Below, in pieces: positions 20,665 to 47,523 of a stretch of 64,000 nt of DNA. This DNA comes from Papaver somniferum (Eukaryota; Streptophyta; Magnoliopsida; Ranunculales; Papaveraceae). The stretch spans positions 90,686,566-90,750,565 of the forward strand of contig NC_039359.1 in the NCBI RefSeq assembly GCF_003573695.1. The letters run 5' to 3'. A program made the translations under genes and the position numbers. The number at the start of each line of letters is the position of its first letter. Within the stretch, counting starts at the first letter, position 1. The notes below the pieces were generated by a model, which did not search any database, was not told the origin of the DNA, and was given only the letters and a program-made list of their open reading frames with translations.

Positions 20665-20669
20665 ACATG
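20665..20669. repeat. Target-site duplication, left copy (ACATG)
   Basis: ACATG immediately precedes the first base of the leftmost LTR (TGGTGGGCCC) and is repeated directly after the last base of the rightmost LTR. Confidence 0.9.
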
Positions 20670-23026
20670 TGGTGGGCCCGGGAAAGCGTATCAAATTGAA
20701 GCGAAATGAAACGGGCCTACAGTAATACCGCAAGTGCACGGTCGTCAGTTGTAGCTCGTGCAAGTACGGGTCGATCCACAGAGATTGGGAGTGTTTCGTA
20801 GTGTTTAGCTATTTTGGGCTCTAATTTGCTATTGGGCTTTGGTAACTTCTAGGCACAGTGGGCTTGGCTTTGGTTTTGGAATGGTCTTGGATTCAGTTGG
20901 CTTTGATGAATTTCTTTGGGCCTTTGAGTTCTTTGGGAATGAACTGGGCCTTTGGCTTTTGAAGTGCACTAGGCTTGGGCTCAGTGAAGTGAACTAAGCC
21001 TCTGATTTAACCAAACAATGAGCTGTGAACTGGGCTTGGTAACCTAGTAATGAGCTGGGCTTTGATCCTTTTTCTTTACAGATTACAGTGGGCACAAAAT
21101 TACAGAACATTAAACTGAATTTGGGAAGTGAACAAAAAGTAACAAGACAGTAGCAAGATAGTGAGAAGAAAGGAGCAAAAAGGAAAGGAGAAAAGAAGAG
21201 ATGGCAGTGAAGTAATGGTGGAAAAGTGACAATGCAATGAAACTAAACAAGAACAATGGAACCAAGGCCTAAGCCAAGGGCAGGGGAGATGGTGAAGGTG
21301 AGCAAGAACAAAAAATGAAAGGCAAAGTTGGGAGCCTAGGCATACTACTAGAGTGGGAAGAGAACTAGTTTGCTCACAGTCACTAGTGAGCACTAGTTTC
21401 TCCCCACTGCTCAATCAATACAGTGCCTCAAAGCTAAACTTCTACCACTAACAGTGAACAAAACATGAATTTAAACACAATAACATAACATGGGAAGCAC
21501 ATAACAGTGAAGGTGAAATGGTGAAGGTGAAATGGTGAAGGTGAGCCTAGGCATACAACTAGAGTGGGAAGAGAACTAGTTTGCTCACAGTCACTAGTGA
21601 GCACTAGTTTCTCCCCACTGCTCAATCAATACAGTGCCTCAAAGCTTCTAGCCTAACATTCCATCACTTCTTGACAGTGAATTGAAACAACATTTGAGGA
21701 ACTAAACCTTTAAACACTAAACATAACATTGAACTAACATTAAACACAAAACTAAATTGAAATTAGAAACAAACAGAAATTATAAGAACATAAATTAAAT
21801 GAACATGGAATTAAACATGAAATAAAACAGAAATTGAAAATTAACTAAAATTGATTTCAAACTGAAATTGAACATTAACAGAACTTCACAGTCCTGGACA
21901 CTGGCTAGTCCAGCATACCCAAAACATTACACCCTCACTTCCTATTTATAATCAGAACACCAAATTAGGGTTTTTACACCAAACCCCCAAATTTAAAAAA
22001 ATTAGGGTTTATAGGAATTTGGGAAAAACTCACCATACCCTCTGAATTTGTTGTCCCCTCTGCAAATTGACGCCAACCCATGCTTGTTGATGTCCCTCTA
22101 ATGCTCTTCCTGCTCCAATTGATGTACTGCAACCCTAGCTCGAGTTGTTTCATCAACTCCACACCTAAGTCAGAGAGGTGTGGGTTTGGGGAAACGACTA
22201 GGCTAGGGAGAGAAAACTGTGGTGCGTACGGGTTTTGGTAGAGGCGGAGAGGGGTGTAGTGAAGCTCGAGGAGCAGCAGTTGCAGGCTGCCATGGTCGGG
22301 TGGAAGGAGGAGCTGGTTTGCAGAGGAAAAGAGAATTTGGGGAGAAGAGAGGGGAAGAGATCGATGAAAATGGGATTAGGGTTCGTTTGGTTGTGGGTAT
22401 AGGTTTCTGATGCCAGGGTGTGAGGCGGATGTATCAAAGGTTGATGATCAGCGAAGCGATCCGTTGGATAATCACTTACTAATTGAATCGAACGGCACGA
22501 TGTAAACAAGCTCTGAGAGACCGTTGGATTAAGTGATACAACGAAGCTGACGGCTCCAGATGGAGTTAGGTGCTGTAGTGTTAGACAGGAGCTTCAGACT
22601 TTGATGTACGGCGATGCTGCGACCGTAGGATGCTGAGATGATCCAATCTGACGGCTAGAAAGGGAAACAGGTATGGATATAGGAAATGGATTTGGGTGAG
22701 GGTTTTGGGTCTTGGGTATGCCAAGCCCATATCTTCTTTAAGAACAATTCTTCCTCTTCAAGCCCACTTCTAATTGATCCGGCTCTTGCAAACATCATTT
22801 TTCGCTTCCTCCTAGCGGGAGTCTTTGTCGTTCCTTTGCTCTTTTCGCTCCGTGAGTTAACCAGGCTTTATTTAGTACCTAAAAATGCAAAATTAATTAA
22901 GAAAAATATTTATTCTTGAAAACAATGAAAATACAGAATATGGGATAAAATGTAGAATTAATGCACAAAAGATGAGTTAAATGCCACGAAAAATATATAG
23001 AAATATGCACTTTTTAGCACTCATCA
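20670..23026 (-). repeat. LTR 1 (outer, 3' LTR of the array)
   Basis: 2357 bp, TG...CA. Its left flank is the target duplication and not a PBS, so it is the true terminal LTR. It carries single-base differences not seen in the four others (near 21073, 21693, 21997 and 22281). A TATAAATAG box on the minus strand lies at 21952-21960, which puts U3 at the right and R/U5 at the left of the LTR. Short ORFs inside it recur in all copies and are not genes. Confidence 0.95.
21345..21645. repeat. Duplicated hairpin module inside the LTR
   Basis: A segment of about 90 bp containing GAGTGGGAAGAGAACTAG and AGTGAGCACTAGTTTCTCC occurs twice within each LTR (here about 21345-21436 and 21551-21645). Each copy has an imperfect inverted repeat, CTAGTTTGCTCAC facing GTGAGCACTAG, which could form a hairpin in RNA. 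It lies in the R/U5 side of the LTR. The same pair is present in LTRs 2 to 5. Confidence 0.8.
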
Positions 23027-23042
23027 AATACCCCAAAACCTG
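23027..23042 (-). other. Polypurine tract of unit 1
   Basis: On the minus strand a G-rich purine run with CAGGTTTTGGGGTATT directly abuts the LTR start TGATGAGTGC, the expected site of plus-strand DNA priming. It has one G fewer in the G run than the other units. Confidence 0.7.
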
Positions 23043-23642
23043 AATTTTACTTGTCCTCAAGTAAAACAAAACTAAGGAAATCCTACCTATACCACTGTCG
23101 CTGGTCTCTCGAATGCATTTAGCGTATGCACTAAGCCTTTTAAACCACTAAGTGTCCCTAGTGGACGAGTTGAAGTCTCGTGAAGGTTTGCTTAGAACGT
23201 ACCTACAAAGTTCTAGGTCAAAATATAAGCTCAGATTCCATCAAATGTGACATGTGCAAGTCAGTTTAAGCTCACAGCAAAATGGAGATGTCAATCTAGC
23301 TATCAAAGGCACAATCCTAGCACTGATAACAAATAAAGACATGTGATAAGAGTGTAAAGTGTATCTACACATGTGTAAAGAAAGATCGGATGTTATGACT
23401 ACTAATCACCAAGAGATACTTTCTCAGGCTAAGAACCAAGGTCGAAATCTAGCTAGCTGTCCGGACTTTACGAGAATTGTGAATGAGCTGGAGGTATTTC
23501 ACAATTACTCGCGTTGTACATCAATGGCATACACCCTTCCTTGCTTATTACAAAGAAACAACAAAATGACTATTTACATGACTCTTATTTACATTGACTA
23601 CTCTCTTTTATTTTTGGAACAAGAGAGAATGGAATTGATAAA

Positions 23643-23673
<31 letters not shown>

Positions 23674-24457
23674 GTATTTTTTGTGATATTATTTTCTGAA
23701 TATATACATCGTTTTTTTTTTTTTTTGAATAAGGAAACACTTTTGATACATATACAAAAGGAAACAAAAGATTACATGACACTTTGCAAGAGGTAGCCCT
23801 TTTTGATGCACCCAGTTAAATTCGATGGTTGTTTTCTTAATGTAACCTCCACCTTCTATCCCAACCAACCAAAGAACAAGCTAGTCAAGTTTCGTTCAGT
23901 ATTCTAAAGTGATTGGCAATCGTGACTTCCTATCAAACACCTTGAAGATCGAGGCCATACTGTATTGGTAGATCGTGCGCGTGCAAATTTCTTATCACAA
24001 TGTGAATTGTGCTAGAATCAGGGTGCCTAAATATCTAGACTAAGACTCCTAATAATTACATATTTGCACAAGAGTCAACATTTCAAGGTAAATGAGCTCC
24101 ATTTTTATGTTTTTTTTTCAATTTTCAATTTTTTATTTTGATTTTTTTAATTTTTTTTTGGTATTTTCAATTTTTTCAAAAAGAAGGAGTTCTTGTTTTC
24201 AATTATGGCATATTATCAAAGTATATACTTTTCACCCCCAAACCTAAACTAAACATTGTCCTCAATGTTTCAAAATATGAACAAAATTATAATACAACAT
24301 ATGAAGAGGATCATGTTGAGTAGAGAAAAAGGAAAGAGAATACCCGATTTCGGCGAAAGCAATATTAGAACTCCGTTATTCAAGGCAAGAATCCAACATA
24401 TGTCAGCCGAGATCATATTGGATTAGGAAAATATATACAAAAGGAACAAAAAGGTTT

Positions 24458-25965
24458 TTAAGAAATTTTATCTACTGGATTATGTACAAAAAATTCACCA
24501 TACACTAACAATCTAAAGAGTTGAGGATCAACCCAAAAGACAAAGTGTAGAGGTTTCAACAGCTTCACACAATAATAATATGATAGGCATGCAAGTGAAG
24601 CTGTGAAACAAAATGAGCTACCCCCAAACCTGGATTTTTCAACAGATAAAATTTTGGATACAAAATCTCGCAGTTTTGGGGGTTCATCATGTACGAGGTC
24701 TAACTCGAAATGGACTGTGCTAGGGACGGGCAAACATGCTATTTCCAACTGTGGTTCCTCAAATGTATTATATTTGGATGAAAAATAGTCCAAGAGGACT
24801 TGGGAAGCACACAGTTCCAAACCTAGATTAGGCATTATCAGAAAATTGGTTTTACAATATCGGTACAAACCAAATCTAGATTGGGTGGAGGGCCATCAGA
24901 TTGTGACTTATGTAGAAGAATAGGCACATCATTATCAATCAAATCAAAATCTCCTAAATCATCTACACATGTCACATCATGATTACAATCATCAATCACA
25001 TTAGCAAGATCACAATCAGAGTCATCAACATCATTAACAGATTTATCCTCGTGTATCGGCTCATCAGGGGAAACATCACATGGAATACTAGAAGACATAT
25101 CATGCATTAAGGTCGGGGCAGAGACGCCTAATGTATTTGAACCCAAAGGTTCCATAACATTTTCAGTATAGACATGTTCTTCTAACATAACATCATAGTC
25201 ATCATCATCATCATGATAGGAATTTTGCAATCTAGGATAATTTTCAATCCTAAGGTCGGAGCTATTACAAGAATAAAACTCTAATTCATGGGGGTGACTC
25301 ATATCATGTGGTGTTGTTCCTGTTTCCCTAACGGATTCCCATTGATGGGTTTTCTCTGCAATCTCGGCTAAAAAATTCCATGCATCATCCACAGATTTAT
25401 CAATAAACTCACCATTACACATAGACTCAACCATGGTTCGAGATTTAAAGTCTAGTCCCTCATAGAGGATGACGACAAGTCTCCACTTCTCAAATCCATG
25501 GTGCGGACATTCGCTCAACAAATCATTAAAACGTTCAAAATAGTGAAAAACAGTTTCCTCATCCAATTGGACAAAACAATTGATACTTTGACGAATAGCG
25601 ATGGTCCTATGATGTGGAAAGAATTTTCTGAAAAATAGATCTGTGAGTTGGTCCCAAGTGGTGATTGATTGTGGTCTCAAACCGTAAAACCATGTTTTGG
25701 CCCTTTCTTTTAGAGAAAATGTGAACAAAGGCAATTTCAGAGAGTCTTCGGCCTTATGATCAGGCTGCATAGTACCGCAAATTTGTTCAAACTCTTTTAC
25801 ATGAGTGTAGGGGTTCTCAGAATCGAGCCCTCGAAATATAGGAAGTATTTGTATCATGCTTGCATTTATTTCAAAAAGGTCATTGGTTTGAGGTAAGACA
25901 ATACATGATGATGGAATTTTTATTGTGGGATACATGTATTCATGGAGAGCATTAGGTTGGCCCAT
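24458..25965 (-). pseudogene. gag of unit 1, frameshifted
   Basis: The ATG at 25965 opens a frame ending at 24838. It contains a Ty3-type capsid domain (retrotransposon gag family): LKERAKTWFYGL, WDQLTDLFFRKFFP and FHYFERFNDLLSECPHHGF are clear family signatures. Behind the domain comes an acidic linker with a run of five Asp. A one-base deletion in an A run near 24841 (GAAAATTGG against GAAAAATTGG in units 2 and 3) ends the frame early. The rest of the reading continues in another frame to about 24458. No zinc knuckle and no protease or RT follows. The protein would form the particle coat and package element RNA if intact. Confidence 0.85.
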
Positions 25966-26778
25966 TTTGAAAAGACACAAAGCCCACTATTTGGTTTTAA
26001 TGGGTTTTCAAAAATTTGGTTTTTTATGGGAAAATTTTGGTTTTGATGGGATATATTTGAAAAAGAAAATTTGGTTTAAAAATGGGAGCAAAGTAGAAAT
26101 TTGGTTTTAAAATTGGGAGCAAAAGAAAATTTTGGTTTGTTGATGGGAGAATTTTTTTATTTTTTATTTTTTTTTTTAAAAAAGGAAAATAAAATTTGGT
26201 TTTTGAATGGGAGCAAGCTCACTGTTGGTTTTGTGTTTGCTTTGGCTCAGCTGGTTTGAAAACGTTTGGTGAAACTGAGTCCAAAATCTCGGCCTAGAAT
26301 TTGGGTACTCGGCCCACTAACGAGTTAACCTAGCGTGATCGGTTACAAGCTCAGCTGGGTTTAAAAACCCATAATACAAAATACCAGTCCAAATTAAACA
26401 AGCTCACAAAAATTAAATACAAGCCCACAAATTAAACAAACAAGCCCACAAATAAATTATTACAAACCCAACAGAAAATAAGAGAAGCCCAAAAATTGGC
26501 TTTAATATTACAAGCCCACAATTAAAAATTGGAAGCCCACAGGTTGGGTTCTCTTAATGGGTTTAGGCTTACCTTTTTAGCACAGCCCAGCTGCTCTGAT
26601 ATTGTTGCAAAAACCCAGTTGGGCTTTGGTTCTTTTCCTTGATGGCGTCCCAGCAGAGGAAAACAGGTTCAGAACAGCAGGCCCAACAACAAATGAAGTG
26701 AAGCAGATGCAGATGCAAGTTCGATAAAAAAGGAAATGCAAAATAGCTAAGAAAAACACAAGAAAAACACAACACCAG

Positions 26779-26796
26779 TCCCCGGCAGCGGCGCCA
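26779..26796 (-). other. Primer binding site of unit 1 (tRNA-Asp type)
   Basis: Minus strand TGGCGCCGCTGCCGGGGA lies 6 bp inside the LTR end. As I recall the plant tRNA-Asp 3' end, it is complementary at 17 of 18 positions. The same site is present in all four units. Confidence 0.8.
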
Positions 26797-26802
26797 AAAA
26801 CT

Positions 26803-29159
26803 TGGTGGGCCCGGGAAAGCGTATCAAATTGAAGCGAAATGAAACGGGCCTACAGTAATACCGCAAGTGCACGGTCGTCAGTTGTAGCTCGTGCAAGTAC
26901 GGGTCGATCCACAGAGATTGGGAGTGTTTCGTAGTGTTTAGCTATTTTGGGCTCTAATTTGCTATTGGGCTTTGGTAACTTCTAGGCACAGTGGGCTTGG
27001 CTTTGGTTTTGGAATGGTCTTGGATTCAGTTGGCTTTGATGAATTTCTTTGGGCCTTTGAGTTCTTTGGGAATGAACTGGGCCTTTGGCTTTTGAAGTGC
27101 ACTAGGCTTGGGCTCAGTGAAGTGAACTAAGCCTCTGATTTAACCAAACAATGAGCTGTGAACTGGGCTTGGTAACCTAGTAATGAGCTGGGCTTTGATC
27201 CTTTTGCTTTACAGATTACAGTGGGCACAAAATTACAGAACATTAAACTGAATTTGGGAAGTGAACAAAAAGTAACAAGACAGTAGCAAGATAGTGAGAA
27301 GAAAGGAGCAAAAAGGAAAGGAGAAAAGAAGAGATGGCAGTGAAGTAATGGTGGAAAAGTGACAATGCAATGAAACTAAACAAGAACAATGGAACCAAGG
27401 CCTAAGCCAAGGGCAGGGGAGATGGTGAAGGTGAGCAAGAACAAAAAATGAAAGGCAAAGTTGGGAGCCTAGGCATACTACTAGAGTGGGAAGAGAACTA
27501 GTTTGCTCACAGTCACTAGTGAGCACTAGTTTCTCCCCACTGCTCAATCAATACAGTGCCTCAAAGCTAAACTTCTACCACTAACAGTGAACAAAACATG
27601 AATTTAAACACAATAACATAACATGGGAAGCACATAACAGTGAAGGTGAAATGGTGAAGGTGAAATGGTGAAGGTGAGCCTAGGCATACAACTAGAGTGG
27701 GAAGAGAACTAGTTTGCTCACAGTCACTAGTGAGCACTAGTTTCTCCCCACTGCTCAATCAATACAGTGCCTCAAAGCTTCTAGCCTAACATTCCATCAC
27801 TTCTTGACAGTGAATTGAAACAACAGTTGAGGAACTAAACCTTTAAACACTAAACATAACATTGAACTAACATTAAACACAAAACTAAATTGAAATTAGA
27901 AACAAACAGAAATTATAAGAACATAAATTAAATGAACATGGAATTAAACATGAAATAAAACAGAAATTGAAAATTAACTAAAATTGATTTGAAACTGAAA
28001 TTGAACATTAACAGAACTTCACAGTCCTGGACACTGGCTAGTCCAGCATACCCAAAACATTACACCCTCACTTCCTATTTATAATCAGAACACCAAATTA
28101 GGGTTTTTACACCAAACCCCCAAATTTAACAAAATTAGGGTTTATAGGAATTTGGGAAAAACTCACCATACCCTCTGAATTTGTTGTCCCCTCTGCAAAT
28201 TGACGCCAACCCATGCTTGTTGATGTCCCTCTAATGCTCTTCCTGCTCCAATTGATGTACTGCAACCCTAGCTCGAGTTGTTTCATCAACTCCACACCTA
28301 AGTCAGAGAGGTGTGGGTTTGGGGAAACGACTAGGCTAGGGAGAGAAAACTGTGGTGCGTACGGGTTTTGGTAGAGGCGGAGAGGGGTGTAGTGAAGCTC
28401 GAGGAGCAGCAGTTGCAGGATGCCATGGTCGGGTGGAAGGAGGAGCTGGTTTGCAGAGGAAAAGAGAATTTGGGGAGAAGAGAGGGGAAGAGATCGATGA
28501 AAATGGGATTAGGGTTCGTTTGGTTGTGGGTATAGGTTTCTGATGCCAGGGTGTGAGGCGGATGTATCAAAGGTTGATGATCAGCGAAGCGATCCGTTGG
28601 ATAATCACTTACTAATTGAATCGAACGGCACGATGTAAACAAGCTCTGAGAGACCGTTGGATTAAGTGATACAACGAAGCTGACGGCTCCAGATGGAGTT
28701 AGGTGCTGTAGTGTTAGACAGGAGCTTCAGACTTTGATGTACGGCGATGCTGCGACCGTAGGATGCTGAGATGATCCAATCTGACGGCTAGAAAGGGAAA
28801 CGGGTATGGATATAGGAAATGGATTTGGGTGAGGGTTTTGGGCCTTGGGTATGCCAAGCCCATATCTTCTTTAAGAGCAATTCTTCCTCTTCAAGCCCAC
28901 TTCTCGTTGATCCGGCTCTTGCAAACATCATTCTTCCCTTCCTCCTAGCGAGAGTCTTTGCCGTTCCTTTGCTCTTTTCGCTCCGTGAGTTAACCAGGCT
29001 TTATTTAGTACCTAAAAATGCAAAATTAATTAGGAAAAGTATTTATTCTTGAAAACAACGAAAACACAGAATATGGGATAAAATGTAGAATTAATGCACA
29101 AAAGATGAGTTAAATGCCAACAAAAAGGGATAAATATATACAATATTTGGCACTCATCA
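26803..29159 (-). repeat. LTR 2
   Basis: 2357 bp. It matches the other LTRs closely until about 28840. From there to the right end (the element's U3 start) it differs at many sites. Examples are GGCCTTGGGT for GGTCTTGGGT, CTTCCCTTCC for TTCGCTTCC, and a replaced last 40 bases ending ATTTGGCACTCATCA where the others have TTTTTAGCACTCATCA. Confidence 0.95.
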
Positions 29160-29880
29160 AATACCCCCAAACCTGAATTTTACTTGTCCTCAAGTAAAAC
29201 AAAACTAAGGAAATCCTAATTATACCACTGTCGCTGGTCTCTCGAATGCATTTAGCGTATGCACTAAGCCTTTTAAACCACTAAGTGTCCCTAGTGGACG
29301 AGTGAAGTCTCGTGAAGGTTTACCAGAGGTGTGCCTACAAAACCTAAGGACAAAATATGAGCTCAGATTCCATCAAATGTGACATGTGCAAGTCAGTTAA
29401 GCTCACAGCAAAATGGAGATGTCAATCTAGCTATCGAAGGCACAATCCTAGCACTGATAACAAATAAGGACATGTGATAAGAGTGTAAAGTGTATCTACA
29501 CATGTGTAAAGAAAGATCGGATGTTATGACTACTAATCACCAAGAGATAGTTTCTCAGGCTAAGAACCAAGGTCGAAATCTAGCTAGCTGTCCGGACTTT
29601 ACGAGAATTGTGAATGAGTTGGAGGTATTTCACAATTACTCGCGTTGTACATCAATGGCATACACCCTTCTTGCTTATTACAATGAAACAACAAAAAGAC
29701 TATTTACATGACTCTTATTTACATTGACTACTCTCTTTTATTTTTGGAACAAGAGAGGATGGAATTGATAAATACTTGATTTTTTTTTGTATTTTTCTGA
29801 TTTTTTATTTTATTTATTTTTTTTTATTTATTTTTTTTTTTGAAAAGAAACAACTTTTGATACATATACAAAAGGAAACA
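28840..29880 (-). repeat. Diverged block crossing the LTR 2 / internal 2 junction
   Basis: Within this block unit 2 differs from units 1, 3 and 4 at many positions, while the flanks are nearly identical. Clear markers are the LTR end (29118-29159), AATTATACCACTG for ACCTATACCACTG (29218), TTTACCAGAGGTGTGCC for TTTGCTTAGAACGTACC (29319), and a different T-rich spacer at 29778-29850. The lengths still align, so this is sequence replacement from a sister lineage and not damage. Confidence 0.75.
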
Positions 29881-30644
29881 AAAAATTACATGACACTTTG
29901 CAAGAGGTAGCCCTTTTTGATGCACCCAGTTAAATTCGATGGTTGTTTTTCTTAATGTAACCTCCACCTTCTATCCCAACCAACCAAAGAACAAGCTAGT
30001 CAAGTTTCGTTCAGTATTCTAAAGTGATTGGCAATCGTAACTTCCTATCAAACACCTTGAAGATCGAGGCCATACATGTATTGGTAGATCGTGCGCGTGC
30101 AAATTTCTTATCACAATGTGAATTGTGCTAGAATCAGGGTGCCTAAATATCTAGACTAAGACTCCTAATAATTACATATTTGCACAAGAGTCAACATTTC
30201 AAGGTAAATGAGCTCCATTTTTTATGTTTTTTTTTTCAATTTCAATTTTTATTTTGATTTTTTTAATTTTTTTTTTGGTATTTTTCAATTTTTTCAAAAA
30301 GAAGGAGTTCTTGTTTTCAATTATGGCATATTATCAAAGTATATACTTTTCACCCCCAAACCTAAACTAAACATTGTCCTCAATGTTTCAAAATATGAAC
30401 AAAATTATAATACAACATATGAAGAGGATCATGTTGAGTAGAGAAAAAGGAAAGAGAATACCCGATTTCGGCGAAAGCAATATTAGAACTCCGTTATTCA
30501 AGGCAAGAATCCAACATATGTCAGCCGAGATCATATTGGATTAGCAAAATATATACAAAAGGAACAAAAAGGTTTTTAAGAAATTTTATCTACTGGATTA
30601 TGTACAAAAAATTCACCATACACTAACAATCTAAAGAGTTGAGA

Positions 30645-32073
30645 TCAACCCAAAAGACAAAGTGTAGAGGTTTCAACAGCTTCACACAAAATAATATGAT
30701 AGGCATGCAAGTGAAGTGTGAAACAAAATGAGCTACCCCCAAACCTGGATTTTTCAACAGATAAAATTTTGGATACAAAATCTCGCAGTTTTGGGGGTTC
30801 ATCATGTACGAGGTCTAACTCGAAATGGACTGTGCTAGGGACGGGCAAACATGCTATTTCCAACTGTGGTTCCTCAAATGTATTATATTTGGATGAAAAA
30901 TAGTCCAAGAGGACTTGGGAAGCACACAGTTCCAAACCTAGATTAGGCATTATCAGAAAAATTGGTTTTACAATATCGGTACAAACCAAATCTAGATTGG
31001 GTGGAGGGCCATCAGATTGTGACTTATGTAGAAGAATAGGCACATCATTATCAATCAAATCAAAATCTCCTAAATCATCTACACATGTCACATCATGATT
31101 ACAATCATCAATCACATTAGCAAGATCACAATCAAGTCATCAACATCATTAACAGATTTATCCTCGTGTATCGGCTCATCAGGGGAAACATCACATGGAA
31201 TACTAGAAGACATATCATGCATTAAGTCGGGGCAGAGACGCCTAATGTATTTGAACCCAAAGGTTCCATAACATTTTCAGTATAGACATGTTCTTCTAAC
31301 ATAACATCATAGTCATCATCATCATCATGATAGGAATTTTGCAATCTAGGATTAATTTCAATCCTAAGGTCGGAGCTATTACAAGAATAAAACTCTAATT
31401 CATGGGGGTGACTCATATCATGTGGTGTTGTTCCTGTTTCCCTAACGGATTCCCATTGATGGGTTTTCTCTGCAATCTCGGCTAAAAAATTCCATGCATC
31501 ATCCACAGATTTATCAATAAACTCACCATTACACATAGACTCAACCATGGTTCGAGATTTAAAGTCTAGTCCCTCATAGAGGATGACGACAAGTCTCCAC
31601 TTCTCAAATCCATGGTGCGGACATTCGCTCAACAAATCATTAAAACGTTCAAAATAGTGAAAAACAGTTTCCTCATCCAATTGGACAAAACAATTGATAC
31701 TTTGACGAATAGCGATGGTCCTATGATGTGGAAAGAATTTTCTGAAAAATAGATCTGTGAGTTGGTCCCAAGTGGTGATTGATTGTGGTCTCAAACCGTA
31801 AAACCATGTTTTGGCCCTTTCTTTTAGAGAAAATGTGAACAAACGCAATTTCAGAGAGTCTTCGGCCTTATGATCAGGCTGCATAGTACCGCAAATTTTT
31901 CAAACTCTTTTACATGAGTAGGGGTTCTCAGAATCGAGCCCTCGAAATATAGGAAGTATTTGTATCATGCTTGCATTTATTTCAAAAAGGTCATTGGTTT
32001 GAGGTAAGACAATACATGATGATGGAATTTTTATGGGATACATGTATTCATGGAGAGCATTAGGTTGGCCCAT
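30645..32073 (-). pseudogene. gag of unit 2, several frameshifts
   Basis: Same capsid-domain protein as unit 1, from the ATG at 32073. It is broken by small deletions near 31898 (TTTTTCAAAC for TTTGTTCAAAC), 31918 (GAGTAGGGG for GAGTGTAGGGG), 31226 (TAAGTCGGGG for TAAGGTCGGGG) and 31134 (CAATCAAGTC for CAATCAGAGTC). The longest uninterrupted piece is 31222-31884. It cannot make full-length Gag. Confidence 0.85.
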
Positions 32074-32274
32074 TTTGAAAAGACACAAAGCCCACTATTT
32101 GGTTTTAATGGGTTTTCAAAAATTTGGTTTTTTATGGGAAAATTTTGGTTTTGATGGGATATATTTGAAAAAGAAAATTTGGTTTAAAAATGGGAGCAAA
32201 GTAGAAATTTGGTTTTAAAATTGGGAGCAAAAGAAAATTTTGGTTTGTTGATGGGAGAATTTTTTTATTTTTTA

Positions 32275-32305
<31 letters not shown>

Positions 32306-32900
32306 GAAAATAAAATTTGGTTTTTGAATGGGAGCAAGCCCACTGTTTGGTTTTGTGTTTGCTTTGGCTCAGCTGGTTTGAAAACGTTTGGTGAAACTGA
32401 GTCCAAAATCTCGGCCTAGAATTTGGGTACTCGGCCCACTAACGAGTTAACCTAGCGTGATCGGTTACAAGCTCAGCTGGGTTTAAAAACCCATAATACA
32501 AAATACCAGTCCAAATTAAACAAGCTCACAAAAATTAAATACAAGCCCACAAATTAAACAAACAAGCCCACAAATAAATTATTACAAACCCAACAGAAAA
32601 TAAGAGAAGCCCAAAAATTGGCTTTAATATTACAAGCCCACAATTAAAAATTGGAAGCCCACAGGTTGGGTTCTCTTAATGGGTTTAGGCTTACCTTTTT
32701 AGCACAGCCCAGCTGCTCTGATATTGTTGCAAAAACCCAGTTGGGCTTTGGTTCTTTTCCTTGATGGCGTCCCAGCAGAGGAAAACAGGTTCAGAACAGC
32801 AGGCCCAACAGCAAATGAAGTGAAGCAGATGCAGATGCAAGTGCGATAAAAAAGGAAATGCAAAATAGCTAAGAAAAACACAAGAAAAACACAGCACCAG

Positions 32901-32918
32901 TCCCCGGCAGCGGCGCCA
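32901..32918 (-). other. Primer binding site of unit 2
   Basis: Identical 18-bp tRNA-Asp-type site, 6 bp from LTR 3. Confidence 0.8.
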
Positions 32919-32924
32919 AAAACT

Positions 32925-35286: not shown

Positions 35287-36849
35287 AATACCCCCAAACC
35301 TGAATTTTACTTGTCCTCAAGTAAAACAAAACTAAGGAAATCCTACCTATACCACTGTCGCTGGTCTCTCGAATGCATTTAGCGTATGCACTAAGCCTTT
35401 TAAACCACTAAGTGTCCCTAGTGGACGAGTTGAAGTCTCGTTAAGGTTTGCTTAGAACGTACCTACAAAGTTCTAGGTCAAAATATAAGCTCAGATTCCA
35501 TCAAATGTGACATGTGCAAGTCAGTTTAAGCTCACAACAAAATGGAGATGTCAATCTAGCTATCAAGGCACAATCCTAGCACTGATAACAAAAAAGACAT
35601 GTGATAAGAGTGTAAAGTGTATCTACACATGTGTAAAGAAAGATCGGATGTTATGACTACTAATCACCAAGAGATAGTTTCTCAGGCTAAGAACCAAGGT
35701 CGAAATCTAGCTAGCTGTCCGGACTTTACGAGAATTGTGAATGAGTTGGAGGTATTTCACAATTACTCGCGTTGTACATCAATGGCATACACCCTTCCTT
35801 GCTTATTACAAGAAACAACAAAATGACTATTTACATGACTCTTATTTACATTGACTACTCTCTTTTATTTTTGGAACAAGAGAGAATGGAATTGATAAAT
35901 ACTTTTTTTTTTTTTTTTTTGTTTTTTGTTTTTTCTGAATATATACATCGTTTTTTTTTTTTTTTTTTGAATAAGGAAACACTTTTGATACATATACAAA
36001 AGGAAACAAAAGATTACATGACACTTTGCAAGAGGTAGCCCTTTTTGATGCACCCAGTTAAATTCGATGGTGTTTTTCTTAATGTAACCTCCACCTTCTA
36101 TCCCAACCAACCAAAGAACAAGCTAGTCAAGTTTCGTTCAGTATTCTAAAGTGATTGGCAATCGTAACTTCCTATCAAACACCTTGAAGATCGAGGCCAT
36201 ACATGTATTGGTAGATCGTGCGCGTGCAAATTTCTTATCACAATGTGAATTGTGCTAGAATCAGGGTGCCTAAATATCTAGACTAAGACTCCTAATAATT
36301 ACATATTTGCACAAGAGTCAACATTTCAAGGTAAATGAGCTCCATTTTTTATGTTTTTTTTTCAATTTTTTATTTTGATTTTTTAATTTTTTTTTGGAAT
36401 TTTTCAATTTTTTCAAAAAGAAGGAGTTCTTGTTTTCAATTATGGCATATTATCAAGTATCTACTTTACCCCCAAACCTAAACTAAACATTGTCCTCAAT
36501 GTTTCAAAATATGAACAAAATTATAATACAACATATGAAGAGGATCATGTTGAGTAGAGAAAAAGGAAAGAGAATACCCGATTTCGGCGAAAGCATATTA
36601 GAACTCCGTTATTCAAGGCAAGAATCCAACATATGTCAGCCGAGATCATATTGGATTAGCAAAATATATACAAAAGGAACAAAAGGTTTTTAAGAAATTT
36701 TATCTACTGGATTATGTACAAAAAATTCACCATACACTAACAATCTAAAGAGTTGAGGATCAACCCAAAAGACAAAGTGTAGAGGTTTCAACAGCTTCAC
36801 ACAATAATAATATGATAGGCATGCAAGTGAAGCTGTGAAACAAAATGAG

Positions 36850-38196
36850 CTACCCCCAAACCTGGATTTTCAACAGAAAATTTTGAACAAAATCTCGCAG
36901 TTTTGGGGGTTCATCATGTACGAGGTCTAACTCGAAATGGACTGTGCTAGGGACGGGCAAACATGCTATTTCCAACTGTGGTTCCTCAAATGTATTATAT
37001 TTGGATGAAAAATAGTCCAAGAGGACTTGGGAAGCACACAGTTCCAAACCTAGATTAGGCATTATCAGAAAAATTGGTTTTACAATATCGGTACAAACCA
37101 AATCTAGATTGGGTGGAGGGCCATCAGATTGTGACTTATGTAGAAGAATAGGCACATCATTATCAATCAAATCAAAATCTCCTAAATCATCTACACATGT
37201 CACATCATGATTACAATCATCAATCACATTAGCAAGATCACAATCAGAGTCATCAACATCATTAACAGATTTATCCTCGTGTATCGGCTCATCAGGGGAA
37301 ACATCACATGGAATACTAGAAGACATATCATGCATTAAGGTCGGGCGGGCAGAGACGCCTAATGTATTTGAACCCAAAGGTTCCATAACATTTTCAGTAT
37401 AGACATGTTCTTCTAACATAACATCATAGTCATCATCATCATCATGATAGGGATTTTGCAATCTAGGATAATTTTCAATCCTAAGGTCGGAGCTATTACA
37501 AGAATAAAACTCTAATTCATGGGGGTGACTCATATCATGTGGTGTTGTTCCTGTTTCCCTAACGGATTCCCATTGATGGGTTTTCTCTGCAATCTCGGCT
37601 AAAAAATTCCATGCATCATCCACAGATTTATCAATAAACTCACCATTACACATAGACTCAACCATGGTTCGAGATTTAAAGTCTAGTCCCTCATAGAGGA
37701 TGACGACAAGTCTCCACTTCTCAAATCCATGGTGCGGACATTCGCTCAACAAATCATTAAAACGTTCAAAATAGTGAAAAACAGTTTCCTCATCCAATTG
37801 GACAAAACAATTGATACTTTGACGAATAGCGATGGTCCTATGATGTGGAAAGAATTTTCTGAAAAATAGATCTGTGAGTTGGTCCCAAGTGGTGATTGAT
37901 TGTGGTCTCAAACCGTAAAACCATGTTTTGGCCCTTTCTTTTAGAGAAAATGTGAACAAACGCAATTTCAGAGAGTCTTCGGCCTTATGATCAGGCTGCA
38001 TAGTACCGCAAATTTGTTCAAACTCTTTTACATGAGTGTAGGGGTTCTCAGAATCGAGCCCTCGAAATATAGGAAGTATTTGTATCATGCTTGCATTTAT
38101 TTCAAAAAGGTCATTGGTTTGAGGTAAGACAATACATGATGATGGAATTTTTATTGTGGGATACATGTATTCATGGAGAGCATTAGGTTGGCCCAT
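36850..38196 (-). CDS. gag of unit 3, longest frame (448 codons)
   Basis: The ATG at 38196 (MGQPNALHEYMYP) was chosen because it is the first ATG before the conserved capsid region. Order: N-terminal segment; Ty3-type gag/capsid domain at about residues 65-185 (LKERAKTWFYGL, WDQLTDLFFRKFFP); Asp-rich linker at about 250; acidic, Asp- and Ser-rich C-terminal half with DEPPKLRDFV near the end. A 3-base insertion near 37345 is in frame. Small deletions near 36869-36889 shift the last residues, so the C-terminus is not ancestral. No CCHC zinc knuckle is visible, and no protease or RT follows. It could still yield capsid protein, but packaging and movement would depend on other elements. Confidence 0.8.
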   Translation of the reverse strand: MGQPNALHEYMYPTIKIPSSCIVLPQTNDLFEINASMIQILPIFRGLDSENPYTHVKEFEQICGTMQPDHKAEDSLKLRLFTFSLKERAKTWFYGLRPQSITTWDQLTDLFFRKFFPHHRTIAIRQSINCFVQLDEETVFHYFERFNDLLSECPHHGFEKWRLVVILYEGLDFKSRTMVESMCNGEFIDKSVDDAWNFLAEIAEKTHQWESVRETGTTPHDMSHPHELEFYSCNSSDLRIENYPRLQNPYHDDDDDYDVMLEEHVYTENVMEPLGSNTLGVSARPTLMHDMSSSIPCDVSPDEPIHEDKSVNDVDDSDCDLANVIDDCNHDVTCVDDLGDFDLIDNDVPILLHKSQSDGPPPNLDLVCTDIVKPIFLIMPNLGLELCASQVLLDYFSSKYNTFEEPQLEIACLPVPSTVHFELDLVHDEPPKLRDFVQNFLLKIQVWG

Positions 38197-38374
38197 TTTG
38201 AAAAGACACAAAGCCCACTATTTGGTTTTAATGGGTTTTCAAAAATTTGGTTTTTTATGGGAAAATTTTGGTTTTGATGGATATATTTGAAAAAGAAAAT
38301 TTGGTTTAAAAATGGGAGCAAAGTAGAAATTTGGTTTTAAAATTGGGAGCAAAAAAATTTTGGTTTGTTGATGG

Positions 38375-38422
<48 letters not shown>

Positions 38423-39013
38423 AAAATAAAATTTGGTTTTTGAATGGGAGCAAGCCCACTGTTTGGTTTTGTGTTTGCTTTGGCTCAGCTGGTTTGAAAA
38501 CGTTTGGTGAAACTGAGTCCAAAATCTCGGCCTAGAATTTGGGTACTCGGCCCACTAACGAGTTAACCTAGCGTGATCGGTTACAAGCTCAGCTGGGTTT
38601 AAAAACCCATAATACAAAATACCAGTCCAAATTAAACAAGCTCACAAAAATTAAATACAAGCCCACAAATTAAACAAACAAGCCCACAAAAATTATTACA
38701 AACCCAACAGAAAATAAGAGAAGCCCAAAAATTGGCTTTAATATTACAAGCCCACAATTAAAAATTGGAAGCCCACATTTGGGTTCTCTTAATGGGTTTA
38801 GGCTTACCTTTTTAGCACAGCCCAGCTGCTCTGATATTGTTGCAAAAACCCAGTTGGGCTTTGGTTCTTTTCCTTGATGGCGTCCCAGCAGAGGAAAACA
38901 GGTTCAGAACAGCAGGCCCAACAACAAATGAAGTGAAGCAGATGCAGATGCAAGTGCGATAAAAAAGGAAATGCAAAATAGCTAAGAAAAAACAAGAAAA
39001 ACACAAGCACCAG

Positions 39014-39031
39014 TCCCCGGCAGCGGCGCCA
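39014..39031 (-). other. Primer binding site of unit 3
   Basis: Identical 18-bp tRNA-Asp-type site, 6 bp from LTR 4. Confidence 0.8.
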
Positions 39032-39037
39032 AAAACT

Positions 39038-41394
39038 TGGTGGGCCCGGGAAAGCGTATCAAATTGAAGCGAAATGAAACGGGCCTACAGTAATACCGCA
39101 AGTGCACGGTCGTCAGTTGTAGCTCGTGCAAGTACGGGTCGATCCACAGAGATTGGGAGTGTTTCGTAGTGTTTAGCTATTTTGGGCTCTAATTTGCTAT
39201 TGGGCTTTGGTAACTTCTAGGCACAGTGGGCTTGGCTTTGGTTTTGGAATGGTCTTGGATTCAGTTGGCTTTGATGAATTTCTTTGGGCCTTTGAGTTCT
39301 TTGGGAATGAACTGGGCCTTTGGCTTTTGAAGTGCACTAGGCTTGGGCTCAGTGAAGTGAACTAAGCCTCTGATTTAACCAAACAATGAGCTGTGAACTG
39401 GGCTTGGTAACCTAGTAATGAGCTGGGCTTTGATCCTTTTGCTTTACAGATTACAGTGGGCACAAAATTACAGAACATTAAACTGAATTTGGGAAGTGAA
39501 CAAAAAGTAACAAGACAGTAGCAAGATAGTGAGAAGAAAGGAGCAAAAAGGAGAAAGAAAGGAAAAGAAGAGATGGCAGTGAAGTAATGGTGGAAAAGTG
39601 ACAATGCAATGAAACTAAACAAGAACAATGGAACCAAGGCCTAAGCCAAGGGCAGGGGAGATGGTGAAGGTGAGCAAGAACAAAAAATGAAAGGCAAAGT
39701 TGGGAGCCTAGGCATACTACTAGAGTGGGAAGAGAACTAGTTTGCTCACAGTCACTAGTGAGCACTAGTTTCTCCCCACTGCTCAATCAATACAGTGCCT
39801 CAAAGCTAAACTTCTACCACTAACAGTGAACAAAACATGAATTTAAACACAATAACATAACATGGGAAGCACATAACAGTGAAGGTGAAATGGTGAAGGT
39901 GAAATGGTGAAGGTGAGCCTAGGCATACAACTAGAGTGGGAAGAGAACTAGTTTGCTCACAGTCACTAGTGAGCACTAGTTTCTCCCCACTGCTCAATCA
40001 ATACAGTGCCTCAAAGCTTCTAGCCTAACATTCCATCACTTCTTGACAGTGAATTGAAACAACAGTTGAGGAACTAAACCTTTAAACACTAAACATAACA
40101 TTGAACTAACATTAAACACAAAACTAAATTGAAATTAGAAACAAACAGAAATTATAAGAACATAAATTAAATGAACATGGAATTAAACATGAAATAAAAC
40201 AGAAATTGAAAATTAACTAAAATTGATTTGAAACTGAAATTGAACATTAACAGAACTTCACAGTCCTGGACACTGGCTAGTCCAGCATACCCAAAACATT
40301 ACACCCTCACTTCCTATTTATAATCAGAACACCAAATTAGGGTTTTTACACCAAACCCCCAAATTTAACAAAATTAGGGTTTATAGGAATTTGGGAAAAA
40401 CTCACCATACCCTCTGAATTTGTTGTCCCCTCTGCAAATTGACGCCAACCCATGCTTGTTGATGTCCCTCTAATGCTCTTCCTGCTCCAATTGATGTACT
40501 GCAACCCTAGCTCGAGTTGTTTCATCAACTCCACACCTAAGTCGAGAGGTGTGGGTTTGGGGAAACGACTAGGCTAGGGAGAGAAAACTGTGGTGCGTAC
40601 GGGTTTTGGTAGAGGCGGAGAGGGGTGTAGTGAAGCTCGAGGAGCAGCAGTTGCAGGATGCCATGGTCGGGTGGAAGGAGGAGCTGGTTTGCAGAGGAAA
40701 AGAGAATTTGGGGAGAAGAGAGGGAAGAGATCGATGAAATGGGATTAGGGTTCGTTTGGTTGTGGGTATAGGTTTCTGATGCCAGGGTGTGAGGCGGATG
40801 TATCAAAGGTTGATGATCAGCGAAGCGATCCGTTGGATAATCACTTACTAATTGAATCGAACGGCACGATGTAAACAAGCTCTGAGAGACGTTGGATTAA
40901 GTGATACAACGAAGCTGACGGCTCCAGATGGAGTTAGGTGCTGTAGTGTTAGACAGGAGCTTCAGACTTTGATGTACGACGATGCTGCGACCGTAGGATG
41001 CTGAGATGATCCAATCTGACGGCTAGAAAGGGAAACGGGTATGGATATAGGAAATGGATTTGGGTGAGGGTTTTGGGTCTTGGGTATGCCAAGCCCATGT
41101 CTTCTTTAAGAACAATTCTTCCTCTTCAAGCCCACTTCTAATTGATCCGGCTCTTGCAAACATCATTTTTCGCTTCCTCCTAGCGGGAGTCTTTGCCGTT
41201 CCTTTGCTCTTTTCGCTCCGTGAGTTAACCAGGCTTTATTTAGTACCTAAAAATGCAAAATTAATTAAGAAAAATATTTATTCTTGAAAACAATGAAAAT
41301 ACAGAATATGGGATAAAATGTAGAATTAATGCACAAAAGATGAGTTAAATGCCACGAAAAATATATAGAAATATGCACTTTTTAGCACTCATCA
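39038..41394 (-). repeat. LTR 4
   Basis: 2357 bp. It groups with LTRs 3 and 5. A local rearrangement in the purine-rich tract at 39548-39572 and single-base deletions near 40542, 40737 and 40890 are private. Confidence 0.95.
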
Positions 41395-42937
41395 AATACC
41401 CCCAAACCTGAATTTTACTTGTCCTCAAGTAAAACAAAACTAAGGAAATCCTACCTATACCACTGTCGCTGGTCTCTCGAATGCATTTAGCGTATGCACT
41501 AAGCTTTTAAACCACTAAGTGTCCCTAGTGGACGAGTTGAAGTCTCGTGAAGGTTTGCTTAGAACGTACCTACAAAGTTCTAGGTCAAAATATAAGCTCA
41601 GATTCCATCAAATGTGACATGTGCAAGTCAGTTTAAGCTCACAGCAAAATGGAGATGTCAATCTAGCTATCAAAGGCACAATCCTAGCACTGATAACAAA
41701 AAAGACATGTGATAAGAGTGTAAAGTGTATCTACACATGTGTAAAGAAAGATCGGATGTTATGACTACTAATCACCAAGAGATAGTTTCTCAGGCTAAGA
41801 ACCAAGGTCGAAATCTAGCTAGCTGTCCGGACTTTACGAGAATTGTGAATGAGTTGGAGGTATTTCACAATTACTCGCGTTGTACATCAATGGCATACAC
41901 CCTTCCTTGCTTATTACAAAGAAACAACAAAATGACTATTTACATGACTCTTATTTACATTGACTACTCTCTTTTATTTTTGGAACAAGAGAGAATGGAA
42001 TTGATAAATACTTTTTTTTTTTTTTTTTTTTTTTTGTATTTTTTGTGATATTATTTTCTGAATATATACATCGTTTTTTTTTTTTTTTTTTGAATAAGGA
42101 AACACTTTTGATACATATACAAAAGGAAACAAAAGATTACATGACACTTTGCAAGAGGTAGCCCTTTTTGATGCACCCAGTTAAATTCGATGGTTGTTTT
42201 TCTTAATGTAACCTCCACCTTCTATCCCAACCAACCAAAGAACAAGCTAGTCAAGTTTCGTTCAGTATTCTAAAGTGATTGGCAATCGTGACTTCCTATC
42301 AAACACCTTGAAGATCGAGGCCATACATGTATTGGTAGATCGTGCGCGTGCAAATTTCTTATCACAATGTGAATTGTGCTAGAATCAGGGTGCCTAAATA
42401 TCTAGACTAAGACTCCTAATAATTACATATTTGCACAAGAGTCAACATTTCAAGGTAAATGAGCTCCATTTTTTATGTTTTTTTTTTTTTCAATTTTCAA
42501 TTTTTTATTTTGATTTTTTTAATTTTTTTTTGGAATTTTTCAATTTTTTCAAAAAGAAGGAGTTCTTGTTTTCAATTATGGCATATTATCAAAGTATCTA
42601 CTTTTCACCCCCAAACCTAAACTAAACATTGTCCTCAATGTTTCAAAATATGAACAAAATTATAATACAACATATGAAGAGGATCATGTTGAGTAGAGAA
42701 AAAGGAAAGAGAATACCCGATTTCGGCGAAAGCAATATTAGAACTCCGTTATTCAAGGCAAGAATCCAACATATGTCAGCCGAGATCATATTGGATTAGC
42801 AAAATATATACAAAAGGAACAAAAAGGTTTTTAAGAAATTTTATCTACTGGATTATGTACAAAAAATTCACCATACACTAACAATCTAAAGAGTTGAGGA
42901 TCAACCCAAAAGACAAAGTGTAGAGGTTTCAACAGCT

Positions 42938-44332
42938 TCACACAATAATAATATGATAGCATGCAAGTGAAGCTGTGAAACAAAATGAGCTACCCCCAAA
43001 CCTGGATTTTTCAACAGATAAAATTTTGGATACAAAATCTCGCAGTTTTGGGGGTTCATCATGTACGAGGTCTAACTCGAAATGGACTGTGCTAGGGACG
43101 GGCAAACATGCTATTTCCAACTGTGGTTCCTCAAATGTATTATATTTGGATGAAAAATAGTCCAAGAGGACTTGGGAAGCACACAGTTCCAAACCTAGAT
43201 TAGGCATTATCAGAAAATTGGTTTTACAATATCGGTACAAACCAAATCTAGATTGGGTGGAGGGCCATCAGATTGTGACTTATGTAGAAGAATAGGCACA
43301 TCATTATCAATCAAATCAAAATCTCCTAAATCATCTACACATGTCACATCATGATTACAATCATCAATCACATTAGCAAGATCACAATCAGAGTCATCAA
43401 CATCATTAACAGATTTATCCTCGTGTATCGGCTCATCAGGGGAAACATCACATGGAATACTAGAAGACATATCATGCATTAAGGTCGGGGCAGAGACGCC
43501 TAATGTATTTGAACCCAAAGGTTCCATAACATTTTCAGTATAGACATGTTCTTCTAACATAACATCATAGTCATCATCATCATGATAGGAATTTTGCAAT
43601 CTAGGATAATTTTCAATCCTAAGGTCGGAGCTATTACAAGAATAAAACTCTAATTCATGGGGGTGACTCATATCATGTGGTGTTGTTCCTGTTTCCCTAA
43701 CGGATTCCCATTGATGGGTTTTCTCTGCAATCTCGGCTAAAAAATTCCATGCATCATCCACAGATTTATCAATAAACTCACCATTACACATAGACTCAAC
43801 CATGGTTCGAGATTTAAAGTCTAGTCCCTCATAGAGGATGACGACAAGTTCCACTTCTCAAATCCATGGTGCGGACATTCACTCAACAAATCATTAAAAC
43901 GTTCAAAATAGTGAAAAACAGTTTCCTCATCCAATTGGACAAAACAATTGATACTTTGACGAATAGCGATGGTCCTATGATGTGGAAAGAATTTTCTGAA
44001 AAATAGATCTGTGAGTTGGTCCCAAGTGGTGATTGATTGTGGTCTCAAACCGTAAAACCATGTTTTGGCCCTTTCTTTTAGAGAAAATGTGAACAAACGC
44101 AATTTCAGAGAGTCTTCGGCCTTATGATCAGGCTGCATAGTACCGCAAATTTGTTCAAACTCTTTTACATGAGTGTAGGGGTTCTCAGAATCGAGCCCTC
44201 GAAATATAGGAAGTATTTGTATCATGCTTGCATTTATTTCAAAAAGGTCATTGGTTTGAGGTAAGACAATACATGATGATGGAATTTTATTGTGGGATAC
44301 ATGTATTCATGGAGAGCATTAGGTTGGCCCAT
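42938..44332 (-). pseudogene. gag of unit 4, frameshifted three times
   Basis: Same capsid-domain protein, from an ATG at 44332. A one-base deletion near 44287 shifts the frame early. A second near 43850 (AAGTTCCAC for AAGTCTCCAC) splits the capsid domain end. A third in the A run near 43214 is identical to that of unit 1. The Asp run is one codon shorter than in the other copies. Non-functional. Confidence 0.85.
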
Positions 44333-44513
44333 TTTGAAAAGACACAAAGCCCACTATTTGGTTTTAATGGGTTTTCAAAAATTTGGTTTTTTATGGGAAA
44401 ATTTTGGTTTTGATGGGATATATTTGAAAAAGAAAATTTGGTTTAAAAATGGGAGCAAAGTAGAAATTTGGTTTTAAAATTGGGAGCAAAAGAAAATTTG
44501 GTTTGTTTGGGGA

Positions 44514-44544
<31 letters not shown>

Positions 44545-45137
44545 GAAAATAAAATTTGGTTTTTGAATGGGAGCAAGCCCACTGTTTGGTTTTGTGTTTG
44601 CTTTGGCTCAGCTGGTTTGAAAACGTTTGGTGAAACTGAGTCCAAAATCTCGGCCTAGAATTTGGGTACTCGGCCCACTAACGAGTTAACCTAGCGTGAT
44701 CGGTTACAAGCTCAGCTGGGTTTAAAAACCCATAATACAAATACCAGTCCAAATTAAACAAGCTCACAAAAATTAAATACAAGCCCACAAATTAAACAAA
44801 CAAGCCCACAAATAAATTATTACAAACCCAACAGAAAATAAGAGAAGCCCAAAAATTGGCTTTAATATTACAAGCCCACAATTAAAAATTGGAAGCCCAC
44901 AGGTTGGGTTCTCTTAATGGGTTTAGGCTTACCTTTTTAGCACAGCCCAGCTGCTGATATTGTTGCAAAAACCCAGTTGGGCTTTGGTTCTTTTCCTTGA
45001 TGGGCGTCCCAGCAGAGGAAAACAGGTTCAGAACAGCAGGCCCAACAACAAATGAAGTGAAGCAGATGCAGATGCAAGTGCGATAAAAAAGGAAATGCAA
45101 AATAGCTAAGAAAAACACAAGAAAAACACAGCACCAG

Positions 45138-45155
45138 TCCCCGGCAGCGGCGCCA
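45138..45155 (-). other. Primer binding site of unit 4
   Basis: Identical 18-bp tRNA-Asp-type site, 6 bp from LTR 5. This is the site that would be used by a transcript starting in the terminal 5' LTR. Confidence 0.8.
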
Positions 45156-45161
45156 AAAACT

Positions 45162-47518
45162 TGGTGGGCCCGGGAAAGCGTATCAAATTGAAGCGAAATG
45201 AAACGGGCCTACAGTAATACCGCAAGTGCACGGTCGTCAGTTGTAGCTCGTGCAAGTACGGGTCGATCCACAGAGATTGGGAGTGTTTCATAGTGTTTAG
45301 CTATTTTGGGCTCTAATTTGCTATTGGGCTTTGGTAACTTCTAGGCACAGTGGGCTTGGCTTTGGTTTTGGAATGGTCTTGGATTCAGTTGGCTTTGATG
45401 AATTTCTTTGGGCCTTTGAGTTCTTTGGGAATGAACTGGGCCTTTGGCTTTTGAAGTGCACTAGGCTTGGGCTCAGTGAAGTGAACTAAGCCTCTGATTT
45501 AACCAAACAATGAGCTGTGAACTGGGCTTGGTAACCTAGTAATGAGCTGGGCTTTGATCCTTTTGCTTTACAGATTACAGTGGGCACAAAATTACAGAAC
45601 ATTAAACTGAATTTGGGAAGTGAACAAAAAGTAACAAGACAGTAGCAAGATAGTGAGAAGAAAGGAGCAAAAAGGAAAGGAGAAAAGAAGAGATGGCAGT
45701 GAAGTAATGGTGGAAAAGTGACAATGCAATGAAACTAAACAAGAACAATGGAACCAAGGCCTAAGCCAAGGGCAGGGGAGATGGTGAAGGTGAGCAAGAA
45801 CAAAAAATGAAAGGCAAAGTTGGGAGCCTAGGCATACTACTAGAGTGGGAAGAGAACTAGTGTTCTCACAGTCACTAGTGAGCACTAGTTTCTCCCCACT
45901 GCTCAATCAATACAGTGCCTCAAAGCTAAACTTCTACCACTAACAGTGAACAAAACATGAATTTAAACACAATAACATAACATGGGAAGCACATAACAGT
46001 GAAGGTGAAATGGTGAAGGTGAAATGGTGAAGGTGAGCCTAGGCATACAACTAGAGTGGGAAGAGAACTAGTTTGCTCACAGTCACTAGTGAGCACTAGT
46101 TTCTCCCCACTGCTCAATCAATACAGTGCCTCAAAGCTTCTAGCCTAACATTCCATCACTTCTTGACAGTGAATTGAAACAACAGTTGAGGAACTAAACC
46201 TTTAAACACTAAACATAACATTGAACTAACATTAAACACAAAACTAAATTGAAATTAGAAACAAACAGAAATTATAAGAACATAAATTAAATGAACATGG
46301 AATTAAACATGAAATAAAACAGAAATTGAAAATTAACTAAAATTGATTTGAAACTGAAATTGAACATTAACAGAACTTCACAGTCCTGGACACTGGCTAG
46401 TCCAGCATACCCAAAACATTACACCCTCACTTCCTATTTATAATCAGAACACCAAATTAGGGTTTTTACACCAAACCCCCAAATTTAACAAAATTAGGGT
46501 TTATAGGAATTTGGGAAAAACTCACCATACCCTCTGAATTTGTTGTCCCCTCTGCAAATTGACGCCAACCCATGCTTGTTGATGTCCCTCTAATGCTCTT
46601 CCTGCTCCAATTGATGTACTGCAACCCTAGCTCGAGTTGTTTCATCAACTCCACACCTAAGTCAGAGAGGTGTGGGTTTGGGGAAACGACTAGGCTAGGG
46701 AGAGAAAACTGTGGTGCGTACGGGTTTTGGTAGAGGCGGAGAGGGGTGTAGTGAAGCTCGAGGAGCAGCAGTTGCAGGATGCCATGGTCGGGTGGAAGGA
46801 GGAGCTGGTTTGCAGAGGAAAAGAGAATTTGGGGAGAAGAGAGGGGAAGAGATCGATGAAAATGGGATTAGGGTTCGTTTGGTTGTGGGTATAGGTTTCT
46901 GATGCCAGGGTGTGAGGCGGATGTATCAAAGGTTGATGATCAGCGAAGCGATCCGTTGGATAATCACTTACTAATTGAATCGAACGGCACGATGTAAACA
47001 AGCTCTGAGAGACCGTTGGATTAAGTGATACAACGAAGCTGACGGCTCCAGATGGAGTTAGGTGCTGTAGTGTTAGACAGGAGCTTCAGACTTTGATGTA
47101 CGACGATGCTGCGACCGTAGGATGCTGAGATGATCCAATCTGACGGCTAGAAAGGGAAACGGGTATGGATATAGGAAATGGATTTGGGTGAGGGTTTTGG
47201 GTCTTGGGTATGCCAAGCCCATGTCTTCTTTAAGAACAATTCTTCCTCTTCAAGCCCACTTCTAATTGATCCGGCTCTTGCAAACATCATTTTTCGCTTC
47301 CTCCTAGCGGGAGTCTTTGTCGTTCCTTTGCTCTTTTCGCTCCGTGAGTTAACCAGGCTTTATTTAGTACCTAAAAATGCAAAATTAATTAAGAAAAATA
47401 TTTATTCTTGAAAACAATGAAAATACAGAATATGGGATAAAATGTAGAATTAATGCACAAAAGATGAGTTAAATGCCACGAAAAATATATAGAAATATGC
47501 ACTTTTTAGCACTCATCA
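45162..47518 (-). repeat. LTR 5 (outer, 5' LTR of the array)
   Basis: 2357 bp, ending CACTCATCA directly before the right ACATG. It shares TCTTTGTCGTTCC with LTR 1, where the inner LTRs have TCTTTGCCGTTCC. One hairpin copy carries a private change (CTAGTGTTCTCAC near 45858). Confidence 0.95.
46434..46442 (-). promoter_or_regulatory. TATA box of the 5' LTR
   Basis: TATAAATAG on the minus strand, about 1.08 kb inside the element's 5' end. It is present at the same place in all five LTRs and probably sets the transcription start, so each LTR could start a transcript reading left. Confidence 0.6.
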
Positions 47519-47523
47519 ACATG
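47519..47523. repeat. Target-site duplication, right copy (ACATG)
   Basis: Matches 20665-20669 exactly and follows the last LTR base directly. Confidence 0.9.

Follow-up and report, generated by a model that had tools for sequence, protein, structure and literature searches.

Structure of the array

A 64,000-nucleotide stretch of the Papaver somniferum genome (C2:90686566-90750565, hereafter the window) raises the question of how a single site came to hold five long terminal repeats (LTRs) and four internal regions of an LTR retrotransposon. One insertion, marked by the target site duplication (TSD) ACATG and enlarged by unequal LTR-LTR recombination, is the best explanation and a moderately probable one. 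Self-comparison and LTR edge motifs placed the array at 20670-47518, with the five LTRs and four internals alternating head to tail; searches covered a poppy assembly of 2715436153 bases in 34283 contigs. The layout agreed with the first-pass annotation, which had described one insertion site at these coordinates. The array is known here from the assembly alone, and its structure holds at that level. No N bases were present in the array or in the whole window. The element lies on the minus strand, which corrects the orientation given earlier, and hence LTR5 is the 5' LTR. The polypurine tract is abbreviated PPT.

20665..20669, no strand, TSD ACATG, left copy, adjoining the outer edge of LTR1
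20670..23026, minus strand, LTR1, 3' LTR of the array, 2357 bp, TG...CA
23027..26802, minus strand, internal 1, 3776 bp, PPT with one base changed
26803..29159, minus strand, LTR2, 2357 bp
29160..32924, minus strand, internal 2, 3765 bp
32925..35286, minus strand, LTR3, 2362 bp
35287..39037, minus strand, internal 3, 3751 bp
39038..41394, minus strand, LTR4, 2357 bp
41395..45161, minus strand, internal 4, 3767 bp
45162..47518, minus strand, LTR5, 5' LTR of the array, 2357 bp
47519..47523, no strand, TSD ACATG, right copy, adjoining the outer edge of LTR5

Pairs of array LTRs were 98.8-99.8% identical and pairs of internals 97.5-99.3% (gaps not counted in either case). On the minus strand the LTRs began with TGATGA and ended with CCACCA, and the 5-nt TSD ACATG lay directly outside LTR1 and LTR5. 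No further TSD was found at any inner LTR edge, because all of these edges were bounded by AATAC or AAACT, the PPT and primer-binding site (PBS) sides; the earlier claim that ACATG stood at the outer edges only was thus upheld. The inner junctions adjoined PBS-like and PPT-like sides, PBS-like TGGCGCCGCTGCCGGGGA was present, and the 26-mer spanning the PBS|LTR junction occurred four times in the window and in 0 of 100 shuffles. Every PBS and PPT had been described as kept. This was true of the four PBS sites, whereas the PPTs were not all identical, with GGTTTTGGGG in internal 1 and GGTTTGGGGG in internals 2-4. All five LTRs had a TATA box, TATAAATAG, at LTR position 1073-1077, and it is possible that inner LTRs could start or end transcripts, as had been suggested.

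A second PPT-like stretch was seen in internal 1 at about 24230-24270 on the minus strand, where TTTAGGTTTGGGGG follows TTGAGGACAATG and resembles the terminal PPT.

Coding content

All 15 open reading frames (ORFs) of at least 130 aa inside the array were scanned against Pfam. PF03732 (Retrotrans_gag) was matched by four of them, one per unit, and the remaining 11 had no Pfam match; none of the 15 matched pol (protease, reverse transcriptase (RT) or integrase).

24841..25986, minus strand, gag ORF of unit 1, 382 aa, PF03732, E 2e-20
31225..31899, minus strand, gag ORF piece of unit 2, 225 aa, PF03732, E 4.3e-21
36853..38217, minus strand, gag ORF of unit 3, 455 aa, PF03732, the longest gag frame, E 1.6e-20
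43824..44306, minus strand, gag ORF piece of unit 4, 161 aa, PF03732, E 5.8e-19

Because gag was found in all four units and pol had no match among ORFs of this size, the element is read from its sequence as a gag-only, non-autonomous LTR retrotransposon. Relatives of the gag were found in P. somniferum on C10, C4, C9, C7 and C3. Non-autonomous elements of the TR-GAG or LARD type likewise carry LTRs and gag without pol. A tRNA-Asp-type PBS is a mark of the Athila or Tat lineage of Ty3/gypsy elements; lineage typing needs RT, and none was found among the ORFs scanned.

Mosaic LTR and foreign tract

The genome-wide LTR search scored 40 of 12357 candidates, and among these the full 2357 bp LTR was matched five times, always in the array. 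Dispersed loci matched it in blocks: a block near 1-764 at 97-98% (C8, C1:109 Mb and C1896), 554-1326 at 90-94%, and 1661-2357 at 93-95%; a single match over 1459-2357 stood at 86%. Judging by these matches, the array LTR is a mosaic. One founding insertion is likely, because among the scored candidates the full mosaic was matched only in the array. Among the matches listed for the first 1874 bp of the internal, dispersed sequences reached 93-95% over near-full length and up to 96% over shorter stretches. A direct repeat of about 104 bp was noted in LTR1 (LTR positions 663-766 and 874-977), near the border of two mosaic blocks.

One unit differed from its sisters over about 1 kb.

28843..29852 (edges approximate), minus strand, foreign tract of unit 2, covering the U3 start, the PPT and the 3' end of internal 2

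Unit 2 was 92.7-93.5% identical to the sister units over this tract. Its 28970-29900 portion was 98% identical to dispersed C8:133791487-133792418 and C1:85474236-85475168, compared with 92.1-92.7% to the sister units. The tract ends within U3, about 760 bp upstream of the TATA box.

Other arrays in the poppy genome

The exact PBS|LTR 26-mer occurred 1936 times genome-wide, and its reversed control 0 times. Frequency was estimated from the first 100 junction places by position (C1:0.5-143.1 Mb). When junctions 2.5-12 kb apart were joined, 81 loci resulted, 13 of which had at least two same-strand junctions (ten with two, two with three and one with four); these 13 are known from junction spacing alone, and some may be adjacent insertions. 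Multi-junction loci numbered 9 of 86 with a 2.5-8 kb limit and 16 of 78 with 2.5-20 kb. Neighbours 2.5-12 kb apart were on the same strand in 17 cases and on opposite strands in 0, compared with a mean of 0.31 and a largest value of 4 under random placement (2000 runs). The four junctions at C1:52594559-52614282 followed one another at intervals of 6562, 6577 and 6584 bp; judging by that spacing, this locus is likely a second four-unit array.

The other arrays came from match lists and are no random sample. Four LTRs and three internals were read at C1:225435298-225452361 (L012, L013), with the TSD ACGTG outside only. Its LTR ends alternated in type (A, B, A, B) over sites 7-157. LTR3 of this array had 322 private sites, all from 1450 onward (a foreign U3); the first of them lay about 34 nt past the TATA box start in the sense direction, near the expected R start. 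Internal 3 had private sites at 145-234. At C6:36050501-36069000 (L036, L032, L033), three LTRs and two internals were flanked by the TSD CCTGT at the outer edges only. The stretch read at C9:199.89 Mb held three LTRs (the last partial), the inner one of another type, and C3:58.55 Mb, C8:164.79 Mb and C7:33.9 Mb each held at least two internals in tandem with LTRs. Relatives of the element in the same genome often appear to be tandem too.

The rarity claimed for such an array in the first-pass annotation was not borne out: multi-junction loci made up 13 of 81 sampled, one four-LTR and one three-LTR poppy array with outer-only TSDs were read directly, tandems are reported as frequent in plants (PMC11899658), and PCR has shown Cassandra arrays with 13 LTRs (PMC7215508).

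Near the PPT end, at 2429-2560, the first LTR of the C6 array diverged over a patch, as in the window and C1:225435298-225452361 arrays.

Origin of the array

Trees were built from eight aligned pieces, midpoint-rooted, with 5-25 dispersed sequences per piece. In six of the eight the window copies formed a clade relative to the dispersed copies (support 54-96). Internals 1 and 2 shared derived states at internal (INT) positions 1140 and 1204, the latter with the gap placement in internal 3 judged by eye. LTRs 3-5 shared a derived state at LTR 2062 and mostly also at LTR 1942. Internals 1-3 were separated from internal 4 by derived states in a low-complexity cluster (INT 3106-3122), which may be a single event.

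Under the favoured explanation, one gag-only, non-autonomous element with the mosaic LTR would have inserted once, creating the TSD ACATG. LTRs of sister chromatids or homologues would then have recombined unequally, each event adding one LTR-internal unit or a few, with the outer TSD and every inner PBS and PPT side kept. About 1 kb of unit 2 may later have been overwritten from a dispersed relative by gene conversion, or may have arrived with a different template.

Several results weigh against this explanation. Stepwise growth is backed by few sites and contradicted by two: LTR1 and LTR5 have the state at LTR 2159 in common, and internals 1 and 4 that at INT 896. The states of LTR2 near 1942-2159 carry little weight because this LTR lies partly inside the foreign tract. 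The window copies formed no clade in two of the eight pieces (INT 1-610 and INT 720-1400), and the first of these placed internal 2 with L013 of the C1:225435298-225452361 array with support 100. The list of matches for the internal piece omitted unit 3 of the array itself; such lists are therefore not exhaustive, and finding the full LTR only here is no proof. One LTR mosaic and one TSD would equally be expected if cDNA of one element had formed a concatemer. Finally, 9 of 12 clean private changes in copy 1 were transversions, which could be consensus error. Private changes were counted only where dispersed copies carry another base. LTR 1618 was dropped for want of a dispersed base, INT 3737 because the dispersed copies vary there, and INT 1085, 1087, 3125, 3132 and 3150 as low-complexity sites.

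The tandem might instead have formed before a single integration: reverse transcription could have switched from one co-packaged RNA to another, or copied a tandem transcript made by read-through, as Sabot and Schulman proposed for three-LTR elements (PMC1950507). The outer-only TSD fits this equally well. The foreign U3 edge in LTR3 of the C1:225.4 Mb array lies near the expected R start, as transfer at R predicts, and unit 2 of the window likewise has a foreign tract across the PPT and U3 start. However, the window tract ends inside U3, well short of the TATA box, and the likeness of U3 types may itself end at R, so that DNA-level conversion could give the same edge. The outer LTRs were also not the most alike pair: LTR1 and LTR5 differed at 11 sites (99.53% identity), whereas LTR3-LTR4 and LTR3-LTR5 differed at 5 each (99.79%). 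Outer LTRs also differed from each other in the C1:225.4 Mb array (sites 7-157) and in the C6 array (sites 2429-2560). We regard formation before integration as possible, on the unlikely side. A broader proposal, that the superfamily habitually makes tandems during reverse transcription, with strong-stop DNA passing at R to a second RNA that often differs from the first and about one in six loci born as an array, seems rather unlikely. If true, it would mean genomes joined head to tail, with inner LTRs carrying foreign U3-PPT tracts.

The unit number could also be an artefact, one or two true units having been expanded or stitched in an assembly of many contigs. Consistent with this, many unit differences were indels in homopolymers or short clusters, and the private substitutions of copy 1 were mostly transversions, as from consensus error. 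However, the units carried distinct isolated substitutions, the 1 kb foreign tract was confined to one of them, no N was present, and outer-only TSDs recurred in the ACGTG (C1) and CCTGT (C6) arrays, though in the same assembly. An artefact is judged quite unlikely. Separate insertions, neighbouring or nested, with later recombination would fit the foreign tract in unit 2, but the lack of inner TSDs, the single outer TSD and an LTR mosaic common to all five LTRs make this origin very improbable. Duplication of the flanks was rejected, the 2 kb flanks having no similarity to each other, and a concatemer of unlike elements was disfavoured by the shared LTR mosaic, except for the foreign tract of unit 2.

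Comparison with known tandem elements

Tandem LTR retrotransposons are reported to be frequent and polymorphic in plants, the species studied being rice, Arabidopsis, almond and cotton, with gypsy often over-represented; their mechanism was left open and their origin called unresolved (Morales-Diaz et al. 2025, PMC11899658). The poppy array resembles them in its alternation of LTRs and internals beginning and ending with an LTR, in the outer 5-nt TSD and in being read as a single insertion. However, the two loci detailed in PMC11899658 had two internals and three LTRs, whereas the poppy array has four and five, is gag-only in its predicted content and carries a foreign tract in one unit. Long reads spanning tandems served as the artefact check in that study. 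Near-telomere-to-telomere Papaver assemblies exist (PMC11406182); that of P. somniferum (HN1) has 2786.51 Mb and a contig N50 of 214.79 Mb, and the assembly analysed here is presumably older. The template-switching complexes proposed in 2007 (Sabot and Schulman, PMC1950507) share the flanking TSD and the shared inner LTR with the poppy array, but their mark is outer LTRs highly similar to each other, as from one reverse transcription; in the poppy array the outer pair, at 99.53%, does not clearly stand out from LTR3-LTR4 and LTR3-LTR5 at 99.79%. The Cassandra TRIM (terminal-repeat retrotransposon in miniature) arrays of Kalendar et al. 2020 (PMC7215508) are likewise LTR-internal arrays, with 13 LTRs and 12 internals in a PCR fragment of about 6 kb; their units measure about 0.5 kb, contain 5S sequences and lack gag, unlike the 6.1 kb poppy units with gag. 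The literature was searched for five-LTR and four-LTR arrays under those terms and none was found; absence from print is not claimed. The poppy array is a well preserved, long example of an already known kind. With 1936 exact junctions, arrays that range from two to four units and U3 types that can be distinguished, its superfamily offers natural marks by which recombination and template switching can be told apart.

Surroundings of the array

An ORF at 16053-16559, about 4 kb from the array, matched Ribonuclease T2 (PF00445, E 5.8e-13). Short tandem repeats were found in the window at 18885-19421 (122 bp), 58471-58660 (32/64 bp) and 61036-61458 (82/217 bp).

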